A stretch of DNA of 64,000 bases from Williamsia limnetica. Lineage in GTDB: Bacteria > Actinomycetota > Actinomycetes > Mycobacteriales > Mycobacteriaceae. Of the stretch, positions 48,071-55,503 are shown in pieces (the first letter of the stretch is position 1; each line of letters starts with the position of its first letter). Position numbers and translations under genes: made by a program. Where the stretch lies: the NCBI RefSeq assembly GCF_003217475.1, contig NZ_QJSP01000006.1, positions 49,878 through 113,877 of the forward strand, in the 5' to 3' direction. The notes beneath the pieces are model-generated. The model was not told the DNA's origin. It did no database searches and worked only from the letters and a program-made list of their open reading frames with translations.

Positions 48071-48094
48071 CAGGTGCGACCTTGCCGACACCTG
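48071..48094. promoter_or_regulatory. Inverted repeat upstream of the MAA-like operon
   Basis: CAGGTG (48071-48076) and CACCTG (48089-48094) are separated by 12 bases. The repeat lies 64 bases before the HAD-like start, inside the presumed promoter region of the operon. It is a candidate operator, short enough to arise by chance. Confidence 0.3.
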
Positions 48095-48122: not shown

Positions 48123-48161
48123 ATGGCATTGATAGTCAACGGTTTCCAGGAAGGAACATGA
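48123..48161 (+). CDS. 12-codon ORF overlapping the first mys-operon gene
   Basis: ATG GCA TTG ... reads MALIVNGFQEGT and stops with TGA at 48159-48161, overlapping the ATG (48158) of the HAD-like gene as ATGA. GAAGGGG lies 8 bases upstream and is a fair ribosome site. It could be a translated leader peptide that couples translation to the operon. No amino-acid run typical of an attenuator is seen. Confidence 0.35.
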   Translation: MALIVNGFQEGT

Positions 48162-48829
48162 TGGCTGCCATCTTGTTTGGATCGATCAGCACCCTCGCAG
48201 ACACCTCTGAAATCCAGCGCCGTGCGTTCAACGAGGCGTTCGAAGCCCATGGCCTGGATTGGAAATGGGGTCGAGACGACTACATCGCCATGCTGGGAAG
48301 TAACGGTGGCGCACAGCGAATTGCAGACTACGCGAAGTCGCGCAACGAGACCGTGGACGCAGCGGCGGTCCATGCGACCAAATCGTCGATATTCCAGGAA
48401 CTGATCTCGATGCTCGGCATCGAGCCCCGCGCCGGCGTCCTGGACGCGGTTGCGGCTGCCAAGGCACACAACGTCAAACTGGGACTGGTGACGACGACGT
48501 CGCCTGAGAACGTCACCGCGCTGCTCGCCGGACTCCCGGAGGTCTCCCGCGAAACCTTCGACGTGGTGGTCGATTCCACGAACGTCGACACGGGCAAGCC
48601 TGACCCGGCGTCATACAGGTATGCACTGGACCAACTCGGCGAGGATGCTGATTCCTGCGTCGCGATCGAAGACAACGTCGGCGGAGTCCATGCGGCCAAG
48701 GCTGCCTCGGTGATCTGCGTGGCGTTCCCGAATCAGAACACCGTGAGCGGCGACTTCTCTGAAGCAGTCGAGGTTGTCGGTCAGCTCGACGCAGATCGTT
48801 TGCGCGCCCTGACCGAGAACGATCACTAG
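48158..48829 (+). CDS. HAD-superfamily-like protein without the catalytic DxD motif
   Basis: A 223-residue protein with the CbbY/beta-phosphoglucomutase-type HAD fold. Motif I, FDxDGTL in active enzymes, reads FGSISTL (residues 7-13), so nucleophile and acid/base aspartates are Gly 8 and Ile 10. Motif II (VTTTSP, Thr 112), motif III (TGKPDP, Lys 147) and the metal motif (AIEDNVGG, Glu 171, Asp 172) are kept. It is therefore probably not a phosphatase; a binding or regulatory role is possible. HAD proteins are plausible partners because the cyclase next door uses a sugar phosphate. ATG at 48158 follows AAGGAA. First gene of the MAA-like operon, 27 bases before mysA. Confidence 0.82.
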   Translation: MMAAILFGSISTLADTSEIQRRAFNEAFEAHGLDWKWGRDDYIAMLGSNGGAQRIADYAKSRNETVDAAAVHATKSSIFQELISMLGIEPRAGVLDAVAAAKAHNVKLGLVTTTSPENVTALLAGLPEVSRETFDVVVDSTNVDTGKPDPASYRYALDQLGEDADSCVAIEDNVGGVHAAKAASVICVAFPNQNTVSGDFSEAVEVVGQLDADRLRALTENDH

Positions 48830-48856
48830 CGCTACCCGCAGTCAGAGAGGACTCAC

Positions 48857-50083
48857 ATGAGCGACATCCAAGCCCGCGTCACCGCCACCGAGCGCGCATT
48901 CCACGTTGAAGGCTACGAGAAGATCGAGTACGACCTGCTGTACGTCGACGGGGTCTTCTCGACCGACCAGTCAGAACTCGCCGACAGCTATCGCGGTTAC
49001 GGCCGCGCTCTGATGGTGATCGACGAGTCCGTGTACGCACTTTACGGTACGCAGATCCATCGTTACTTCGAACACCACGACCTGCAGCTCGCGGTCGTTC
49101 CGGTCGGAATCGCCGAGACCGCAAAGTCATTGAGCACCTTCGAGGAGATCGTCGGCAAGTTCGACGAGTTCGGGCTCGTTCGCACCGAGCCCGTCCTGGT
49201 GGTCGGCGGGGGACTCACCACAGATGTTGCCGGGTTCGCATGTGCGAGCTATCGACGGAACACACCCTATATCCGCATTCCGACGACGTTGATCGGACTG
49301 ATCGACGCCAGTGTGTCCATCAAGGTGGCGGTCAACCACGGCAAACACAAGAACCGGCTGGGCGCCTACCACGCATCCCAAAAGGTGTTGCTGGACTTCT
49401 CTTTCCTTCGGACTCTGCCTGCCGATCAGGTGCGAAACGGCATGGCTGAGTTGATCAAGATCGCCACGGTCGGTAATGCGAACATCTTCGACATGCTCGA
49501 CGAGTACGGTCCCGAGTTGTTGCGGACCCGATTCGGGCATCTGGACGGAACGGTCGAACTCCGTGCAGTTGCGGACAACCTCACCTATCAGGCCATCGAG
49601 ACGATGCTCGAACTCGAGGCGCCGAACCTTCATGAGCTGATGCTCGACCGGGTCATCGCGTTCGGACATACGTGGAGTCCGACACTCGAACTCACACCGC
49701 CGCAACCGTTCTTTCATGGACATGCGATCAACATCGACATGGCCCTGTCGACGACGCTCGCCGAAAAGCGTGGCCTCATCTCGGTGGAGGACCGCGACCG
49801 GATCCTCGGGGTGATGAACCGTCTGGGCCTGGCTCTCGACAGCGAGCACCTCACACCCGAACTGCTCTCTGAGGCGACAACATCCATCCTCAGGACGCGA
49901 GATGGTTTGCTTCGGGCCGCGGTACCCAACCCGATCGGTCAGTGCCAGTTCCTCAACGACGTCACCGTCCACGAACTCGCCGACACCCTCACTGTGCACA
50001 AGAAGATCTGCCTCGACTTCGAACGCGAAGGTGCAGGGGTCGAGATGTTCACATCCGCGCATCTCGCCTCCGTCGATGGCTGA
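48857..50083 (+). CDS. mysA: Sedoheptulose-7-phosphate cyclase, DDGS-like (MysA homolog)
   Basis: A 408-residue member of the dehydroquinate-synthase superfamily. [20 protein letters not shown] (about 115-135) is the NAD/phosphate region; zinc ligands should be Glu 198 (GMAELIK), His 271 (FGHTWSP) and His 287 ([12 protein letters not shown]). [13 protein letters not shown] is shared by the sugar-phosphate cyclases DDGS and EEVS. DDGS makes desmethyl-4-deoxygadusol from sedoheptulose 7-phosphate; EEVS makes 2-epi-5-epi-valiolone. I cannot separate the two by residues alone; the adjacent methyltransferase and MysC/MysD homologs favour DDGS. Coding overlaps mysB by eight bases. Confidence 0.85.
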
Positions 50084-50903
50084 GACGGTGACGACCCCGA
50101 CTCATCCGGTCACACCGTCGACGATTCTTGCGGCGGAGTTGTCGGAGCTCGTCGAGTTGGTCGACGCAGTGCCGGTACTCGATTCAGCGATCAAAGAACG
50201 GTTGCGTAGGACACGTGACCTGGCACGGGGTCTCGACCCCTATCTCGAGCAGTGCTCGACCCCGGAGTCGCCGGCGCTTGCCGCGCTCGCGGCGCGCACC
50301 CGGGCGGAGCAGTGGACAGACCGGTCGCTGGTCTCCGGTTCTGGGCCGCTGGAGCAGGAGATGTTGTCGGGGCATGTGGAGGGTCAGACCCTGAAGTTTC
50401 TGGTGCACATGACTCGGGCTCGCCGCGTCCTCGACATCGGGATGTTCACCGGATACTCCGCGCTGGCGATGGCCGAAGCTCTCCCCGACGATGGCGAGGT
50501 GGTGGCGTGCGAGGTCGATCCCTATGTCGCCGACGTCGCCCGTCAGTGTTTCTCCGAATCTCCGGCAGGTGCGCGGATTCGCGTCGAAGTCGGTCCTGCC
50601 CTGACCACAGTGCTGCGGCTGGAAGGTCCGTTCGACCTCGTCTTCATCGATGCAGACAAGACCGGGTACCTCGACTACTTCCACTACCTCATCGGGAGTG
50701 GACTCCTTGCGCAACACGGAGTGATCGCCGTGGACAACACACTCCTGCAGGGCGAGCCGTACACAGATCACGGTGCTCGCTCCACCAATGGACAAGCGAT
50801 TGCAGATTTCAACCGCGCAGTGGCCAATGACTCCAGGGTGGAACAGGTACTGCTGCCGTTGCGGGACGGGGTGACTCTCATCCGGCGAAAAGGTTCGGAC
50901 TGA
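50076..50903 (+). CDS. mysB: Class I SAM O-methyltransferase (MysB homolog)
   Basis: A 275-residue methyltransferase of the caffeoyl-CoA/catechol type. [19 protein letters not shown] (motif I, residues 118-136), [12 protein letters not shown] (acidic SAM ribose ligand) and [17 protein letters not shown] (metal-binding Asp) are visible. In MAA pathways MysB methylates the product of MysA to 4-deoxygadusol. The N-terminal 60 residues are helical, as in MysB. ATG at 50076 lies inside the end of mysA, so translation is coupled; mysC begins three bases after its stop. The assignment rests on neighbours; the fold itself is generic. Confidence 0.82.
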
Positions 50904-50905
50904 TC

Positions 50906-52207
50906 ATGACAGCAACATCGTCGATCAAAACAGTAGCTGCATTGGCAGGTCTCTTGGCAACGTTGCCGGTCGATCTGGCGGTGACGGCGATCGCCCTGAT
51001 ACGTCGGGTGCCCCCACCGGTGGTGGACGCGACGGACAGGCGACGCACCGTTCTCGTCACCGGCGGCAAGATGACCAAGTCACTGTCCATCGCCCGCGCC
51101 TTTCATCTGGCAGGGCACCGGGTCATCTTGGCCGAATCCGCGAAGTACCGTTTCACCGGTCACCGGTTCTCTCGAGCCGTCGACAAGTTCCACTGCATTC
51201 CGGAGCCGACCTCACCGCACTATGCCGACGCGCTGCTCGATCTGGTCAAGCGAGAGGAAGTCGATGTATTCGTTCCGGTCGCGAGTCCGGCTGCCAGCGT
51301 CCATGACGCGGATGCGGGTGAGTTCCTCGGCGACTTCTGCGACGTTGTGCACGGTAACTCCCGGACGGTGCGCATGGTGGATGACAAGGATCGTTTCTCG
51401 GAATTCGCACGGTCGGCGGGTGTTCGGGTGCCGGATTCGCGGCGTATCACCGACCCGGCGCAGATCGCGGAGTTCGACTTTCCACCCGGTCGCGAATACA
51501 TTCTCAAGCGGATCGCTTACAACCCGGTCGGCCGGATGGATCTGACGAAGCTCTCGGATGCGACGCCGGAGCGGAATCTACAGTTCGCGGCCAGTTTGCA
51601 GATCTCGGAGGACGACCCGTGGATCTTGCAGGAGTACATCGCAGGCCAGGAGTACTGCACGCACGGTACCGCGCGCGCAGGGAGCCTGCAGGTGTATGCC
51701 TGCTGTGAATCGTCTGCATTTCAAGTCAATTACGAGATGGTCGACAAACCGGAGATTCTCTCGTGGGTCCAGACTTTCGTGAGTCGGCTCGGCGTCAGCG
51801 GTCAGTATTCGTTCGACTTCATCGAGGGTGACGACGGGCATGCCTACGCCATCGAATGTAATCCCCGGACCCACTCGGCCATCACGATGTTCGAAGGGCA
51901 TCCGCGACTCGCCGCCGCCTATCTCGACGACAATCACCCGATGATCGTTCCGGAACCGGATTCGCTGCCCACGTATTGGATCTACCACGAGCTGTGGCGG
52001 CTGCTGACCGAACCGGGTCGTCGCCGGCGCGTGCGTGTCATCGCGCGGGGCCGTGACGCCATCTTCGCCGCATGGGATCCATTGCCTTACCTGCTCGTTC
52101 ATCACCTGCAGATCCCGTCGTTGCTCGTAAAGAGCCTTGTCGCCGGGAAAGACTGGACACGAATCGATTTCAACATCGGTAAGCTTGTCGAGACGGGTGG
52201 AGACTGA
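50906..52207 (+). CDS. mysC: ATP-grasp ligase (MysC homolog)
   Basis: A 433-residue ATP-grasp protein. After an N-terminal hydrophobic helix (AALAGLLATLPVDLAVTAIA), the pre-ATP-grasp region has TVLVTGGKMTKSLSIARAFH and KYRFTGHRFSRAVDKFH, as I recall them for cyanobacterial MysC. ATP-grasp motifs are WILQEYIAGQEY and the Mg site FDFIEGDDGHAYAIECNPRT. MysC joins glycine to 4-deoxygadusol, giving mycosporine-glycine. Its stop overlaps the mysD start (last base shared). Gene order A-B-C-D equals that of cyanobacterial and actinobacterial MAA clusters. Confidence 0.88.
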   Translation: MTATSSIKTVAALAGLLATLPVDLAVTAIALIRRVPPPVVDATDRRRTVLVTGGKMTKSLSIARAFHLAGHRVILAESAKYRFTGHRFSRAVDKFHCIPEPTSPHYADALLDLVKREEVDVFVPVASPAASVHDADAGEFLGDFCDVVHGNSRTVRMVDDKDRFSEFARSAGVRVPDSRRITDPAQIAEFDFPPGREYILKRIAYNPVGRMDLTKLSDATPERNLQFAASLQISEDDPWILQEYIAGQEYCTHGTARAGSLQVYACCESSAFQVNYEMVDKPEILSWVQTFVSRLGVSGQYSFDFIEGDDGHAYAIECNPRTHSAITMFEGHPRLAAAYLDDNHPMIVPEPDSLPTYWIYHELWRLLTEPGRRRRVRVIARGRDAIFAAWDPLPYLLVHHLQIPSLLVKSLVAGKDWTRIDFNIGKLVETGGD

Positions 52208-53277
52208 TGCAACCTCAGCGCATCGAGCCGGATCAGTCCCCGCTCCGCTCCATCTCCGTGTTGATGCTCGTCGGGTCGCCGGTCGACTTCTTTCGCGCCG
52301 ACCTGTCGCGGGTCTATGCGAAGGGCTTTCTGGATGTGTTTCATGACCTGGCGGACTACCGGATCGAGATCGCCTATGTGTCCCCGGATGGCAGTTGGAG
52401 ATTTCCGCGCAGCCTAGACGAGGTGGACACTGCAGCTGCTCAACCGGTCTCATTGTCGGATGCGGTGAGCTACATCGAGGCGCGACAGCACGACATCATG
52501 ATCCCCGAGATGTTCTGTCGACCGGGGATGACGACGTATCGCTCGCTGTTCGACCTCCTCGGGATCCCACACCTCGGTAATCGCGCCGATGTCATGGCGA
52601 TGACTGCGGACAAACACCTTGCTCGTGCGGTGGTTGCCGCAGCGGGGGTCGCGGTGCCGGCCGGCGAGGTCCTTCGGGCCGGCGAGAAGTACACCGGAAA
52701 TATGCCCGTCGTCGTCAAACCCGCTGACTCCGACAACTCCATGGGCGTCAGTTTGGTACGAGAAGAAGCGGACATGGCACTCGCGATCGACGACGCGCTC
52801 CTGTACTCGGAGTCGGTCATCGTCGAAACATACGTACCGCTCGGTCGGGAAGTGCGATGCGGGATCATCGTCAGAGAAGGCGAATTGGTCTGTTTGCCGC
52901 TGGAAGAATACGCGGTCGACGAACGGGAGCACCCCATCCGCGCAAGGGCCGACAAACTCGAACGGACTGCGGACGGCGAGTTGTATCTGGTGGCAAAGGA
53001 ATCCACCAAGGCATGGATCGTCGACGTGGACGACCCGGTCACAGAGGCGGTGTGGGCGGCCGCCCGGCGGTGTCACATCGCTCTCGGGTGCCGGCACTAC
53101 AGTCTGTTCGACTTCCGGATCGATCCAGCCGGAGTGCCGTGGTTTCTCGAGGCAGGACTGTACTGCTCGTACTCACCGAGCAGCGTGATCTCTGTGATGG
53201 CCGCCGCGGCCGGCATCGGTGTCGATGAGCTGCTCGAGATGGGCTTGCAGGAGATCGCGCGAGAGAAGGCCCGGTGA
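52207..53277 (+). CDS. mysD: D-Ala-D-Ala-ligase-like ATP-grasp ligase (MysD homolog)
   Basis: A 356-residue ATP-grasp enzyme. It begins with ISVLMLVGSPVDFFRADLSR, then FCRPGMTTYRSLFDLLGIPH, and has the nucleotide-binding segment MPVVVKPADSDNSMGVSLV (about 168-187), EVRCGIIVREGE, and the closing LFDFRIDPAGVPWFLEAGL with the metal ligands, in place of the NTxPG end of true D-Ala-D-Ala ligases (here LYCSYSPSS). MysD adds a second amino acid, usually serine, threonine or similar, to mycosporine-glycine to give shinorine, porphyra-334 and relatives. The amino acid used here cannot be predicted by eye. Overlaps both neighbouring genes. Confidence 0.85.
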   Translation: MQPQRIEPDQSPLRSISVLMLVGSPVDFFRADLSRVYAKGFLDVFHDLADYRIEIAYVSPDGSWRFPRSLDEVDTAAAQPVSLSDAVSYIEARQHDIMIPEMFCRPGMTTYRSLFDLLGIPHLGNRADVMAMTADKHLARAVVAAAGVAVPAGEVLRAGEKYTGNMPVVVKPADSDNSMGVSLVREEADMALAIDDALLYSESVIVETYVPLGREVRCGIIVREGELVCLPLEEYAVDEREHPIRARADKLERTADGELYLVAKESTKAWIVDVDDPVTEAVWAAARRCHIALGCRHYSLFDFRIDPAGVPWFLEAGLYCSYSPSSVISVMAAAAGIGVDELLEMGLQEIAREKAR

Positions 53278-54038
53278 TGGAATATCAGGTCCTCGATCCC
53301 ATCGGCGTTCGCGTCACAGATCTGTCTCTGGATGGCGTGGGCACTGCCGATGTGGCCACCCTCGAGAAGCTGTTGGCCGAGTGCGGTGTGCTGGTCATCC
53401 CGGACCAAAAGATCGACGACGGTGTGTTTCTCGCGTTTTTGAAGCAATTCGGTGAGCTGATGTTCACCGCGGGAGAGCTGCCGCTGGCCGGCTACCCTGA
53501 CCTCAACGTCATCAGCAACGTCGGCCGGGCGACACCTCCGAAGTCGACGTTCCATGTCGACACGACGTACGTATCGCATCCGCCCCGGTTCACCGCGTTG
53601 CGTGCGGTGAATGTGCCCGATGAAGGTGGCCATACCCAGTTCAGCAATCAGTATGCGGCGCACGACACGCTCACGGAAGCGGTCCGCGACGACTTGGCCG
53701 GTCGACTCATGACCCATGTGGTCACCGGGGTCGACCCCGGCGAGGACGCCCAAACCTCTGCTGCGCACCCGCTCCTTCTCACCCACCCGTTGTCGGGGCG
53801 CACCGCGCTGTATCTGTCGGCGGCGGCGAGGTGTGAGGCGATCACCGGCAAGACGCCCGAAGAAGTTGCACAGATCGTCGCCGACCTCATCGCGCACTCG
53901 ACGCGAAGCGACAACGTCTTTCGGCATGCCTGGTCTGCCGGAGACGTCGTGATGTGGGACAACCGGGTCGTAATGCATCGCGCAGACCACAGCGGCGTGG
54001 TCGGCGACCGGGTGATGCACCGGGGGATGGTTCGCTGA
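53277..54038 (+). CDS. TauD-family Fe(II)/2-oxoglutarate dioxygenase, MAA tailoring candidate
   Basis: A 253-residue TauD/TfdA-type dioxygenase. The facial triad is intact: FHVDTTY gives His 93 and Asp 95, and VVMHRADH gives His 234; Arg 245, eleven residues later, is placed to bind 2-oxoglutarate. GGHTQFSNQYAAHDTL follows the first motif as in TauD. Its ATG overlaps the mysD stop (TGATG), so it belongs to the operon. Known cyanobacterial tailoring oxygenases of MAAs (MysH) are phytanoyl-CoA-dioxygenase-like and convert to palythine-type products; a TauD-type enzyme here points to a different or independently evolved step. Confidence 0.85.
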   Translation: MEYQVLDPIGVRVTDLSLDGVGTADVATLEKLLAECGVLVIPDQKIDDGVFLAFLKQFGELMFTAGELPLAGYPDLNVISNVGRATPPKSTFHVDTTYVSHPPRFTALRAVNVPDEGGHTQFSNQYAAHDTLTEAVRDDLAGRLMTHVVTGVDPGEDAQTSAAHPLLLTHPLSGRTALYLSAAARCEAITGKTPEEVAQIVADLIAHSTRSDNVFRHAWSAGDVVMWDNRVVMHRADHSGVVGDRVMHRGMVR

Positions 54039-54222: not shown

Positions 54223-55503
54223 ATGAACTTTCGGGGGTTGTTCGAACACTTATCAACGATGGCGGCTGATCCATTGCTGGCGCCGCTCGACGATGTGGCG
54301 TTGTCGGAGGAGACGGTCTACGCATTGCGGGCCAAGAATGTGTTGGACGCATTGCTGTTTCGGTTCACCGCCGACCTTGACAAGCGTGGTGTGGCCAAGA
54401 CACTCGGTGCGGATTCGACTGCTGAGCTGCTGCGATCGGTGCAGGTATCGCCGGCTGTTGCGCACCGCTACGTACGGGTCGGTCGCGCCCTCGGCTCCAT
54501 CCCCTCGGTCGCTGCGTATGCCGTGGACGGGACTCTGTCCGGGGAGCACGTGGACGCCATCGTCAAAGGCTTGCATCACATCGACCGCCGCGACCCCGAC
54601 CTGTCGGAGACTGATCGTGCCGACTGCGTGCGTGGGTTGTTGACCGAGGCGCGTATCTCGACGCCGGCCGCGGTTGTCGAGCGGGCCCACGAGATGGCGA
54701 TCGCCTTGTCGCCGCCGGACAAAGAAACGGCGGATGCGGAGAATGATGAGCTCAACGAGGTGTCGTTCGGGACCGGCGATGATGGCCGCACCCACGGCAC
54801 CCTGGACCTGGACAAAGCCCTGGGGGAGAAACTGGCGACCGCGTTGCGTCCGCTGGCCAAACCCGTCCCCGAACCGGACGGGTCACCGGATCCGCGCAGC
54901 ACCTCGCAGCGTCTCGCCGAAGCCCTCGGAAAGATCCTGGATGTGTTCTTCGCTCACCAGGATCGGCCCACCGAAGGTGGGGTCAAGCCGCGGGTGACGA
55001 TGACCGTCTCCGCGGAGCAACTGTTGGCGTTTCAGATGAACGGCATCCCGGACGCGAAAGTCCCGACCGCACCCGCAACGTTCGAATGGACCGGGCCGGT
55101 GTCGCTGCCGACCGCGCAGACTATTGCCTGCGATTCGGTGATCACCAAAATCCTGCTCGACAACAACGCCGTACCCCTGCAGGTGGGGCGTGAGTTCCGG
55201 ACGGTCACACCCGCCATTCGTAAAGCATTGATTGCGCGGGACAAGGGCTGTGCGTTCCCGGGCTGCGGCTGCCCCGCCGGATGGACCGACGCTCATCACA
55301 TCACGTTCTGGAGTCACGGTGGTGAGACGAGCCTGGCCAACACCGTCCTGCTGTGCAGACGGCACCACAACTACATCCACCACAAAGGCTGGACCGTGTT
55401 CCTCGGACACGACGGCCACCCCTGGTTCATAGCGCCCGGGAAGACCGAACCAATGCGGTCCCACGCCAGACGCACCCTGACCAACGAACCACTCGCCGCC
55501 TAA
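54223..55503 (+). CDS. DUF222/HNH endonuclease family protein (13E12-type)
   Basis: A 426-residue protein with an N-terminal DUF222 region (LRAKNVLDALLFRFTADLDK, GTLSGEHVDAIVKGL) and a C-terminal HNH domain: GCAFPGCGCPAGWTDAHHIT, then WSHGGETSLANTVLLCRRHH with the second zinc histidines. This is the multicopy 13E12 repeat family of Mycobacteriales. It is often treated as a selfish or mobile gene, though members lack terminal repeats and no such repeats flank this one. ATG at 54223. It follows the MAA-like operon by 185 bases and is probably transcribed separately. Confidence 0.9.
   Translation: MNFRGLFEHLSTMAADPLLAPLDDVALSEETVYALRAKNVLDALLFRFTADLDKRGVAKTLGADSTAELLRSVQVSPAVAHRYVRVGRALGSIPSVAAYAVDGTLSGEHVDAIVKGLHHIDRRDPDLSETDRADCVRGLLTEARISTPAAVVERAHEMAIALSPPDKETADAENDELNEVSFGTGDDGRTHGTLDLDKALGEKLATALRPLAKPVPEPDGSPDPRSTSQRLAEALGKILDVFFAHQDRPTEGGVKPRVTMTVSAEQLLAFQMNGIPDAKVPTAPATFEWTGPVSLPTAQTIACDSVITKILLDNNAVPLQVGREFRTVTPAIRKALIARDKGCAFPGCGCPAGWTDAHHITFWSHGGETSLANTVLLCRRHHNYIHHKGWTVFLGHDGHPWFIAPGKTEPMRSHARRTLTNEPLAA

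Follow-up and report, generated by a model that had tools for sequence, protein, structure and literature searches.

The stretch analysed here, 64,000 nucleotides of Williamsia limnetica contig NZ_QJSP01000006.1 (hereafter the window), contains six plus-strand genes arranged head to tail at 48158-54038: a gene for a HAD-like protein, mysA, mysB, mysC, mysD, and a gene for a TauD-family dioxygenase (Table 1). The four central genes belong to the families that make up the core of mycosporine-like amino acid (MAA) synthesis, the dioxygenase has its key residues intact, and the HAD-like protein has lost catalytic residues, a loss that is fixed in the intact copies linked to mys clusters, where the HAD and TauD genes mostly occur together. 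Judged by orthology, the product would be a palythine-type MAA. The operon type is already known, and the Williamsia operon is a further example of it; two points go beyond the published description and merit attention, namely that the HAD catalytic residues are uniformly lost and that HAD and TauD seem to form a two-gene cassette. The six genes likely form one transcript, because mysA and mysB, mysC and mysD, and mysD and the TauD gene overlap.

Table 1 Features of the HAD-mysABCD-TauD operon, in window coordinates
Feature	Position	Strand	Basis
HAD-like pseudophosphatase of CbbY descent, 223 aa	48158..48829	+	Pfam, profile search, Foldseek; motif I GSIST vs DxDGT
HAD motif I codons G8-S9-I10-S11-T12 (canonical D-x-D-G-T)	48179..48193	+	GSI in 74/74 intact cluster-linked copies; codon variation at G8, S9
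HAD codons S17 to Q20	48206..48217	+	S and Q in 74/74; E and H in 53/53 DxD relatives
mysA, DDGS-type sugar-phosphate cyclase (DDGS, desmethyl-4-deoxygadusol synthase), 408 aa	48857..50083	+	Pfam, match to 5tpr
mysB, class I O-methyltransferase, 275 aa	50076..50903	+	Pfam; 8-base overlap with mysA
mysC, ATP-grasp ligase, 433 aa	50906..52207	+	Homologues and context
mysD, D-Ala-D-Ala-ligase-like ATP-grasp ligase, 356 aa	52207..53277	+	Pfam; 1-base overlap with mysC
TauD/TfdA-family Fe(II)/2-oxoglutarate dioxygenase, 254 aa	53274..54038	+	Pfam; 4-base overlap with mysD
TauD iron ligands H94 and D96	53553..53561	+	Invariant, alignment of 36 rows
TauD distal iron ligand H235	53976..53978	+	Invariant, alignment of 36 rows

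Identity of the core genes and the dioxygenase

Pfam models match the HAD-like protein (76 bits), MysA (DHQ_synthase, 105 bits), MysB (Methyltransf_3, 158 bits), MysD (Dala_Dala_lig_C, 64 bits), and TauD (163 bits). MysC scores 19.8 bits with Pfam ATP-grasp_3, under the cut-off of 23.2, and 403.5 with NCBIfam PRK06849, just under the cut-off of 406, so its assignment rests on homologues and context: long MysC orthologues sit in ordered mys clusters, and MysC groups in trees with cyanobacterial MysC. MysA matches PDB entry 5tpr, which we take to be DDGS, with 553 bits over 398 residues, whereas the cyclase 4p53, presumably an EEVS, scores 269 bits. On these scores, and with AroB models that stay under their cut-offs, a reading of MysA as EEVS or AroB was rejected. 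A separate AroB-like gene, 28% identical to MysA, is found elsewhere in the genome. The core thus consists of a DDGS-type MysA, an adjoining MysB O-methyltransferase, an ATP-grasp MysC, and a MysD resembling D-Ala-D-Ala ligases. An earlier note, made from the sequence of this stretch alone, had read these genes as a mysABCD-type MAA operon in the usual order, and the Pfam matches, the homologues, the 5tpr match, and the order shared by 59 of 87 loci (see below) bear it out.

The same note had named Gordonia as the relative group for comparison, but the nearest MysC relatives are from Williamsia itself (Williamsia sp. 1135, W. soli, and Williamsia sp. 1138, 88-90% identity). Within the genus, mysC is present at 76-100% identity in five of nine genomes, the other four holding just a paralogue near 30%. 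Orthologues were found in 55 of 401 family genomes and in 7 of the 396 genomes of the phylum sample; these genus, family, and phylum counts include the genome under study. No MysC relatives were found among viral contigs, and a single plasmid record, from Nostoc sp. HK-01, was retrieved at 1e-30.

For the dioxygenase, the sole Pfam match at E ≤ 0.001 is PF02668 (TauD), and a reading as MysH, a member of the PhyH family, was rejected on that ground. The protein contains the H-x-D...H iron triad and the distal arginine, and fold matches agree: its predicted structure has a predicted local distance difference test score (pLDDT) of 95.1, and the nearest folds are PlaO1 and AAD-1, at ~30% identity. 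H94, D96, H235, R246, and R250 (numbered from the GTG at 53274) are invariant in the 36 rows of alignment A3. The triad is therefore intact, as previously noted, although the residue numbers given for it then were one too low. At one Rhodococcus locus (L055, 10048-10809), TauD is apparently degenerate, with two partial matches in one open reading frame (ORF).

Loss of catalytic residues in the HAD-like protein

The HAD-like protein descends from the CbbY family of sugar-bisphosphate phosphatases. Its AlphaFold2 model is confident (pLDDT 95.1), the top three Foldseek matches are Rhodobacter sphaeroides CbbY structures (4uau, 4uat, and 4uar; template modelling scores 0.87-0.89; 36% identity), and CbbY ranks first in a family profile search (4e-54). 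Its motif I reads LFGSISTLADT. The absence of a DxD had already been seen, and correctly so, but a single sequence could not reveal that this loss is a fixed trait of the HAD family linked to mys clusters.

G8, S9, and I10 are found in all 74 intact cluster-linked HAD proteins, in which T112, K147, E171, D172, and N173 are likewise invariant. These 74 come from the 80 loci found with MysC plus the window, minus six loci without HAD in the stretch and minus a locus of Mycobacterium sp. AT1 (L073, 5087-5851), whose HAD gene has a shifted reading frame at its 5′ end. Compared with CbbY and with 53 relatives that have DxD, drawn from two phyla, the family shows four complete switches (53/53 in the relatives): D8 to G, D10 to I, E17 to S, and H20 to Q. 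The aspartate nucleophile and the aspartate acid/base of a HAD phosphatase are thus both missing from motif I; the threonine or serine of motif II (T112), the lysine of motif III (K147), and the acidic pair of motif IV (E171 and D172) are present, in roles that we assume from the HAD family at large. All four residues aligned with D8, D10, E17, and H20 of R. sphaeroides CbbY are replaced, and these presumably include the nucleophile and the general acid of the xylulose-1,5-bisphosphate phosphatase reaction.

R54, K75, R91, W37, and Y42 are common to the HAD-like protein and CbbY, and the anion-binding and metal-site residues are kept. Synonymous codons vary at G8, S9, S17, and Q20, which argues that selection keeps these residues; I10 is encoded by ATC in 71 of the 74 copies. 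From its residues, the protein should bind an anionic ligand without hydrolysing it by the usual route, and it probably binds or assists rather than cuts.

Linkage of the HAD and TauD genes to mys clusters

The earlier note had suggested checking whether the two added genes recur beside mysABCD, and they do: 72 of 80 mys loci carry both HAD and TauD, two carry HAD alone (L072 and L125), one carries neither (L122), and five carry TauD alone. As these loci are the best 80 of 405 MysC relatives, the figure of 72 leans to actinobacteria close to the window; it also includes the shifted HAD of L073, the degenerate TauD of L055, and a TauD cut by the contig end in L096. In the five loci with TauD alone, the contig begins at or within the cluster, and the upstream flank is cut off. 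Among five further loci from the phylum sample (L196-L200), four have both genes and L196 has HAD alone. TauD without HAD was never seen where the upstream flank was present; HAD without TauD was seen three times (L072, L125, and L196). Both genes thus stand beside the mys core, as in the described actinobacterial MAA clusters of the HAD/TauD type.

The exact order HAD-A-B-C-D-TauD is found in 59 of 87 loci, far beyond chance; the 87 comprise the 80 loci and L195-L201, of which L195 has no mys gene and L201 repeats L083. Three orders occur according to lineage, HAD-A-B-C-D-TauD, HAD-A-B-TauD-C-D, and TauD-HAD-A-B-C-D, and the HAD/TauD pair stays in each. The gene table behind these counts used a threshold of 250 bits. 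In L199 and L200, a divergent MysA, ~37% identical to that of the window and scoring below that threshold, lies just upstream of HAD, and in the mycobacterial loci L090, L092, and L104 no mysB was found between mysA and mysC at the threshold. L103 and L123 come from metagenome-assembled genomes (MAGs) titled Spirochaetes and Melainabacteria, for which misbinning is possible.

In the phylum sample of 396 genomes, the seven genomes with strong HAD matches (292-367 bits) are the same seven that have mysC. The other 23 HAD matches at E ≤ 1e-25 reach at most 158.5 bits, and 23/23 have the D-x-D motif.

In cyanobacteria, mysC is present in 30 of 283 genomes. No HAD or TauD was found near mys in any of 31 regions from the 29 mysC genomes other than G782, with ~9 kb read on each side, several regions cut by contig ends, and ORFs of at least 60 aa scanned; a partial HAD-profile match of 33 bits in L232 was left uncounted, and one of the regions belongs to genome G842. 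A divergent HAD-TauD unit does adjoin mysABCD at L116 (Drouetiella hepatica) and L120, both from cyanobacterial MAGs. In the MysC tree, these two form a clade of 34 together with all of the 32 other cyanobacterial sequences (support 1.0), and their neighbours there are L204 and L122, neither of which has HAD or TauD. Their HAD proteins fall in a clade of nine (0.955) that otherwise holds six actinobacterial loci and the Melainabacteria-titled L123, and their TauD proteins, on a long branch, have that of the Williamsia locus L101 as neighbour (0.949), with a support of 0.44 at the next node. These placements fit a joint acquisition of the HAD and TauD pair; because the trees were made with FastTree and rooted at the midpoint, the direction of transfer is something we infer. 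Across 292 cyanobacterial genomes, 65 HAD-profile matches were obtained, 63 with D-x-D and two of the GSI type (G782 and G842).

At the borders of the Williamsia operon, the HAD gene starts at the ATG at 48158, directly after AGGAAGGAAC, within a mechanically called ORF that opens earlier, at 48074. The earlier note was right that HAD and TauD frame the core, but the left edge it gave, 48123, is the ATG of a 12-codon ORF (48123-48161) whose ATGA overlaps the HAD start. A reading of this ORF as a leader peptide was rejected, and it is not counted as a gene: L048 does not keep its stop, and the sequence before the cluster in the compared loci outside Williamsia is dissimilar. No promoter emerged from a simple scan for the sigma-70 consensus, although such a scan says little for an actinobacterium. 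Directly 3′ of TauD, on the same strand, an ORF at 54223-55503 has an HNH-like C-terminal end, and we take it to be of the 13E12/DUF222 type.

Proposed pathway and comparison with known systems

In the known MAA pathway, MysA converts sedoheptulose 7-phosphate into desmethyl-4-deoxygadusol, which MysB methylates; MysC then attaches glycine at the expense of ATP, and a shinorine-type imine results when MysD joins a second amino acid to the product. We consider it reasonably likely that the window encodes a complete MAA operon of the published HAD/TauD type, in which MysA to MysD would follow this pathway, TauD would make a palythine-type amine, and the HAD-like protein would be a non-hydrolytic partner derived from CbbY. 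TauD would hydroxylate the alpha-carbon of one amino-acid arm, and the resulting hemiaminal would break up and leave the amine, in line with proposals for MysH and MysI. The HAD-like protein, with its anion-binding pocket kept and its phosphatase activity presumably gone, may act as a ligand-binding or allosteric partner in the MAA pathway, most likely for the TauD step. TauD is probably the palythine-forming oxygenase, given these proposals and a report on the Rhodococcus fascians operon: a 2025 preprint on GATOR-GC cites unpublished expression of the operon of strain D188 in Streptomyces coelicolor, which reportedly gave shinorine, palythine, and palythine-serine (PMC11888242). For MysI, the proposed scheme is a hydroxylation of a glycine arm that yields a palythine intermediate, with the arm then leaving spontaneously (PMC10510106).

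In our best reading, the two added genes would form a portable tailoring cassette, TauD being the catalyst and the HAD-like protein a ligand-binding pseudophosphatase partner. More tentatively, and with somewhat more doubt than confidence, we propose that CbbY-derived pseudophosphatases with GSI[S/G]T where DxDGT is usual, and with E17S and H20Q, form a family of dedicated partners in MAA synthesis that bind an anionic sugar-derived ligand uncut and move with TauD onto foreign mysABCD cores, as in the two cyanobacteria.

Several observations weigh against this interpretation. The clusters of L072, L125, and L196 keep HAD with no TauD in the stretch read: a TauD-profile search of the L072 genome at 1e-20 gave no match, the sole match in the L125 genome (106 bits) lies elsewhere in that genome, and for L196 (genome G222) TauD was sought within an 18-kb stretch. 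HAD is therefore not merely an accessory of TauD, unless TauD was lost from these clusters. The GSI-type HAD of G842 (L195, 9552-10253) is distant (160 bits), lies ~330 kb from its own mysC, and adjoins glgC- and rsgA-like genes. Another GSI-type HAD, 42% identical to the window protein, is encoded on Roseobacter litoralis plasmid pROLI81 (L241, 8989-9660), where it is annotated as a HAD-IA family hydrolase; the adjoining genes encode TrkA/TrkH potassium uptake proteins and an L,D-transpeptidase, and the surrounding 18.7 kb contains no annotated mys gene. Both orphans keep G8, S9, I10, S17, and Q20, so the GSI type is not confined to MAA clusters, and the case for a dedicated role is limited accordingly. 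Finally, the products of the R. fascians operon are known at second hand, from unpublished work (via PMC11888242).

Another possibility, rather unlikely in our view, is that the HAD-like protein serves the front of the pathway: as an inactive sugar-phosphate phosphatase, it would bind sedoheptulose 7-phosphate and either feed MysA or regulate it. The HAD gene stands before mysA, on the same strand and with no pathway gene between, in 76 of 87 loci (59 + 9 + 3 + 3, L109, and L123). The closest relatives of its product with solved structures bind a pentulose bisphosphate, and the gene is kept in the three clusters without TauD. However, it is paired with TauD and divergent from mysA in L116 and L120, it comes after the divergent MysA in L199 and L200, and the 31 cyanobacterial mys regions have no HAD nearby. 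TauD, for its part, could act on another carbon and yield a hydroxylated or otherwise modified MAA and no palythine. PlaO1 and AAD-1 are its nearest solved relatives, and at so low an identity its reaction is not readable from sequence; nevertheless, the palythine and palythine-serine reported for the R. fascians operon (PMC11888242) make such an outcome unlikely.

We hold it doubtful that the HAD-like protein is an enzyme with new chemistry, using its GSI loop (for example Ser9) or E171/D172 to break the TauD hemiaminal or to hydrolyse a bond of the MAA. The invariant S9, a position at which the DxD relatives mostly have valine (79% of 53), would suit such a role, as would the invariance of T112, K147, E171, D172, and N173, but we know of no HAD chemistry that uses the Ser9 position. 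Furthermore, in the scheme given for MysI the hydroxylated arm needs no help to leave (PMC10510106). That HAD and TauD are chance neighbours with no MAA role is hardly credible: the three clusters without TauD and the 31 cyanobacterial regions without both genes would fit, but 72 of 80 loci have the pair, which is retained across three gene orders, and both genes are present in two cyanobacterial clusters.

If the proposed cassette is real, a pseudoenzyme is built into sunscreen tailoring, and the orphan members may have kept or found another use. The loss of the HAD residues shifts the search from a hydrolase substrate to a ligand or a protein partner. This is also relevant to rebuilding palythine production, as TauD may need the HAD gene.

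Among known systems, CbbY, a xylulose-1,5-bisphosphate phosphatase, has its fold, cap domain, and many pocket residues in common with the HAD-like protein, and differs in that its D8, D10, E17, and H20 are G, I, S, and Q in the window protein. MysH is an Fe(II)/2-oxoglutarate oxygenase that gives palythines and belongs to the phytanoyl-CoA dioxygenase family, whereas the window protein matches TauD alone in Pfam. The earlier note assigned tailoring in known MAA clusters to MysH rather than to any TauD enzyme; this is not supported, given MysI of Nostoc sp. UHCC 0926, described as a TauD/TfdA dioxygenase of cyanobacterial MAA pathways (PMC10510106), and the actinobacterial HAD/TauD clusters (PMC11888242). 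MysI resembles the window TauD by family description; it lies in a plasmid mysF-mysI-mysE cluster, in the account of which no HAD is mentioned (PMC10510106), whereas the window TauD belongs to a HAD-mysABCD-TauD operon.

The closest counterparts are the clusters of the GATOR-GC preprint, which describes conserved HAD and TauD/TfdA genes in the MAA clusters of actinobacteria, suggests that TauD may act like MysH, and leaves the role of HAD open (PMC11888242). The gene set is identical to that of the window, and in Actinomycetota HAD and TauD accompany the mys core. The main text of the preprint nowhere uses the words catalytic, aspartate, nucleophile, CbbY, or pseudoenzyme, nor does it discuss the lost HAD residues. 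According to the preprint, Cyanobacteriota have neither HAD nor TauD in these clusters (PMC11888242), whereas the MAG loci L116 and L120 carry both genes. For R. fascians, the product data concern strain D188, and our comparison was made with the type strain (L063). The six-gene order of the type strain is identical to that of the window, and the proteins are 62% (HAD), 79% (MysA), 67% (MysB), 72% (MysC), 65% (MysD), and 61% (TauD) identical; the Williamsia operon therefore belongs to the described operon type.

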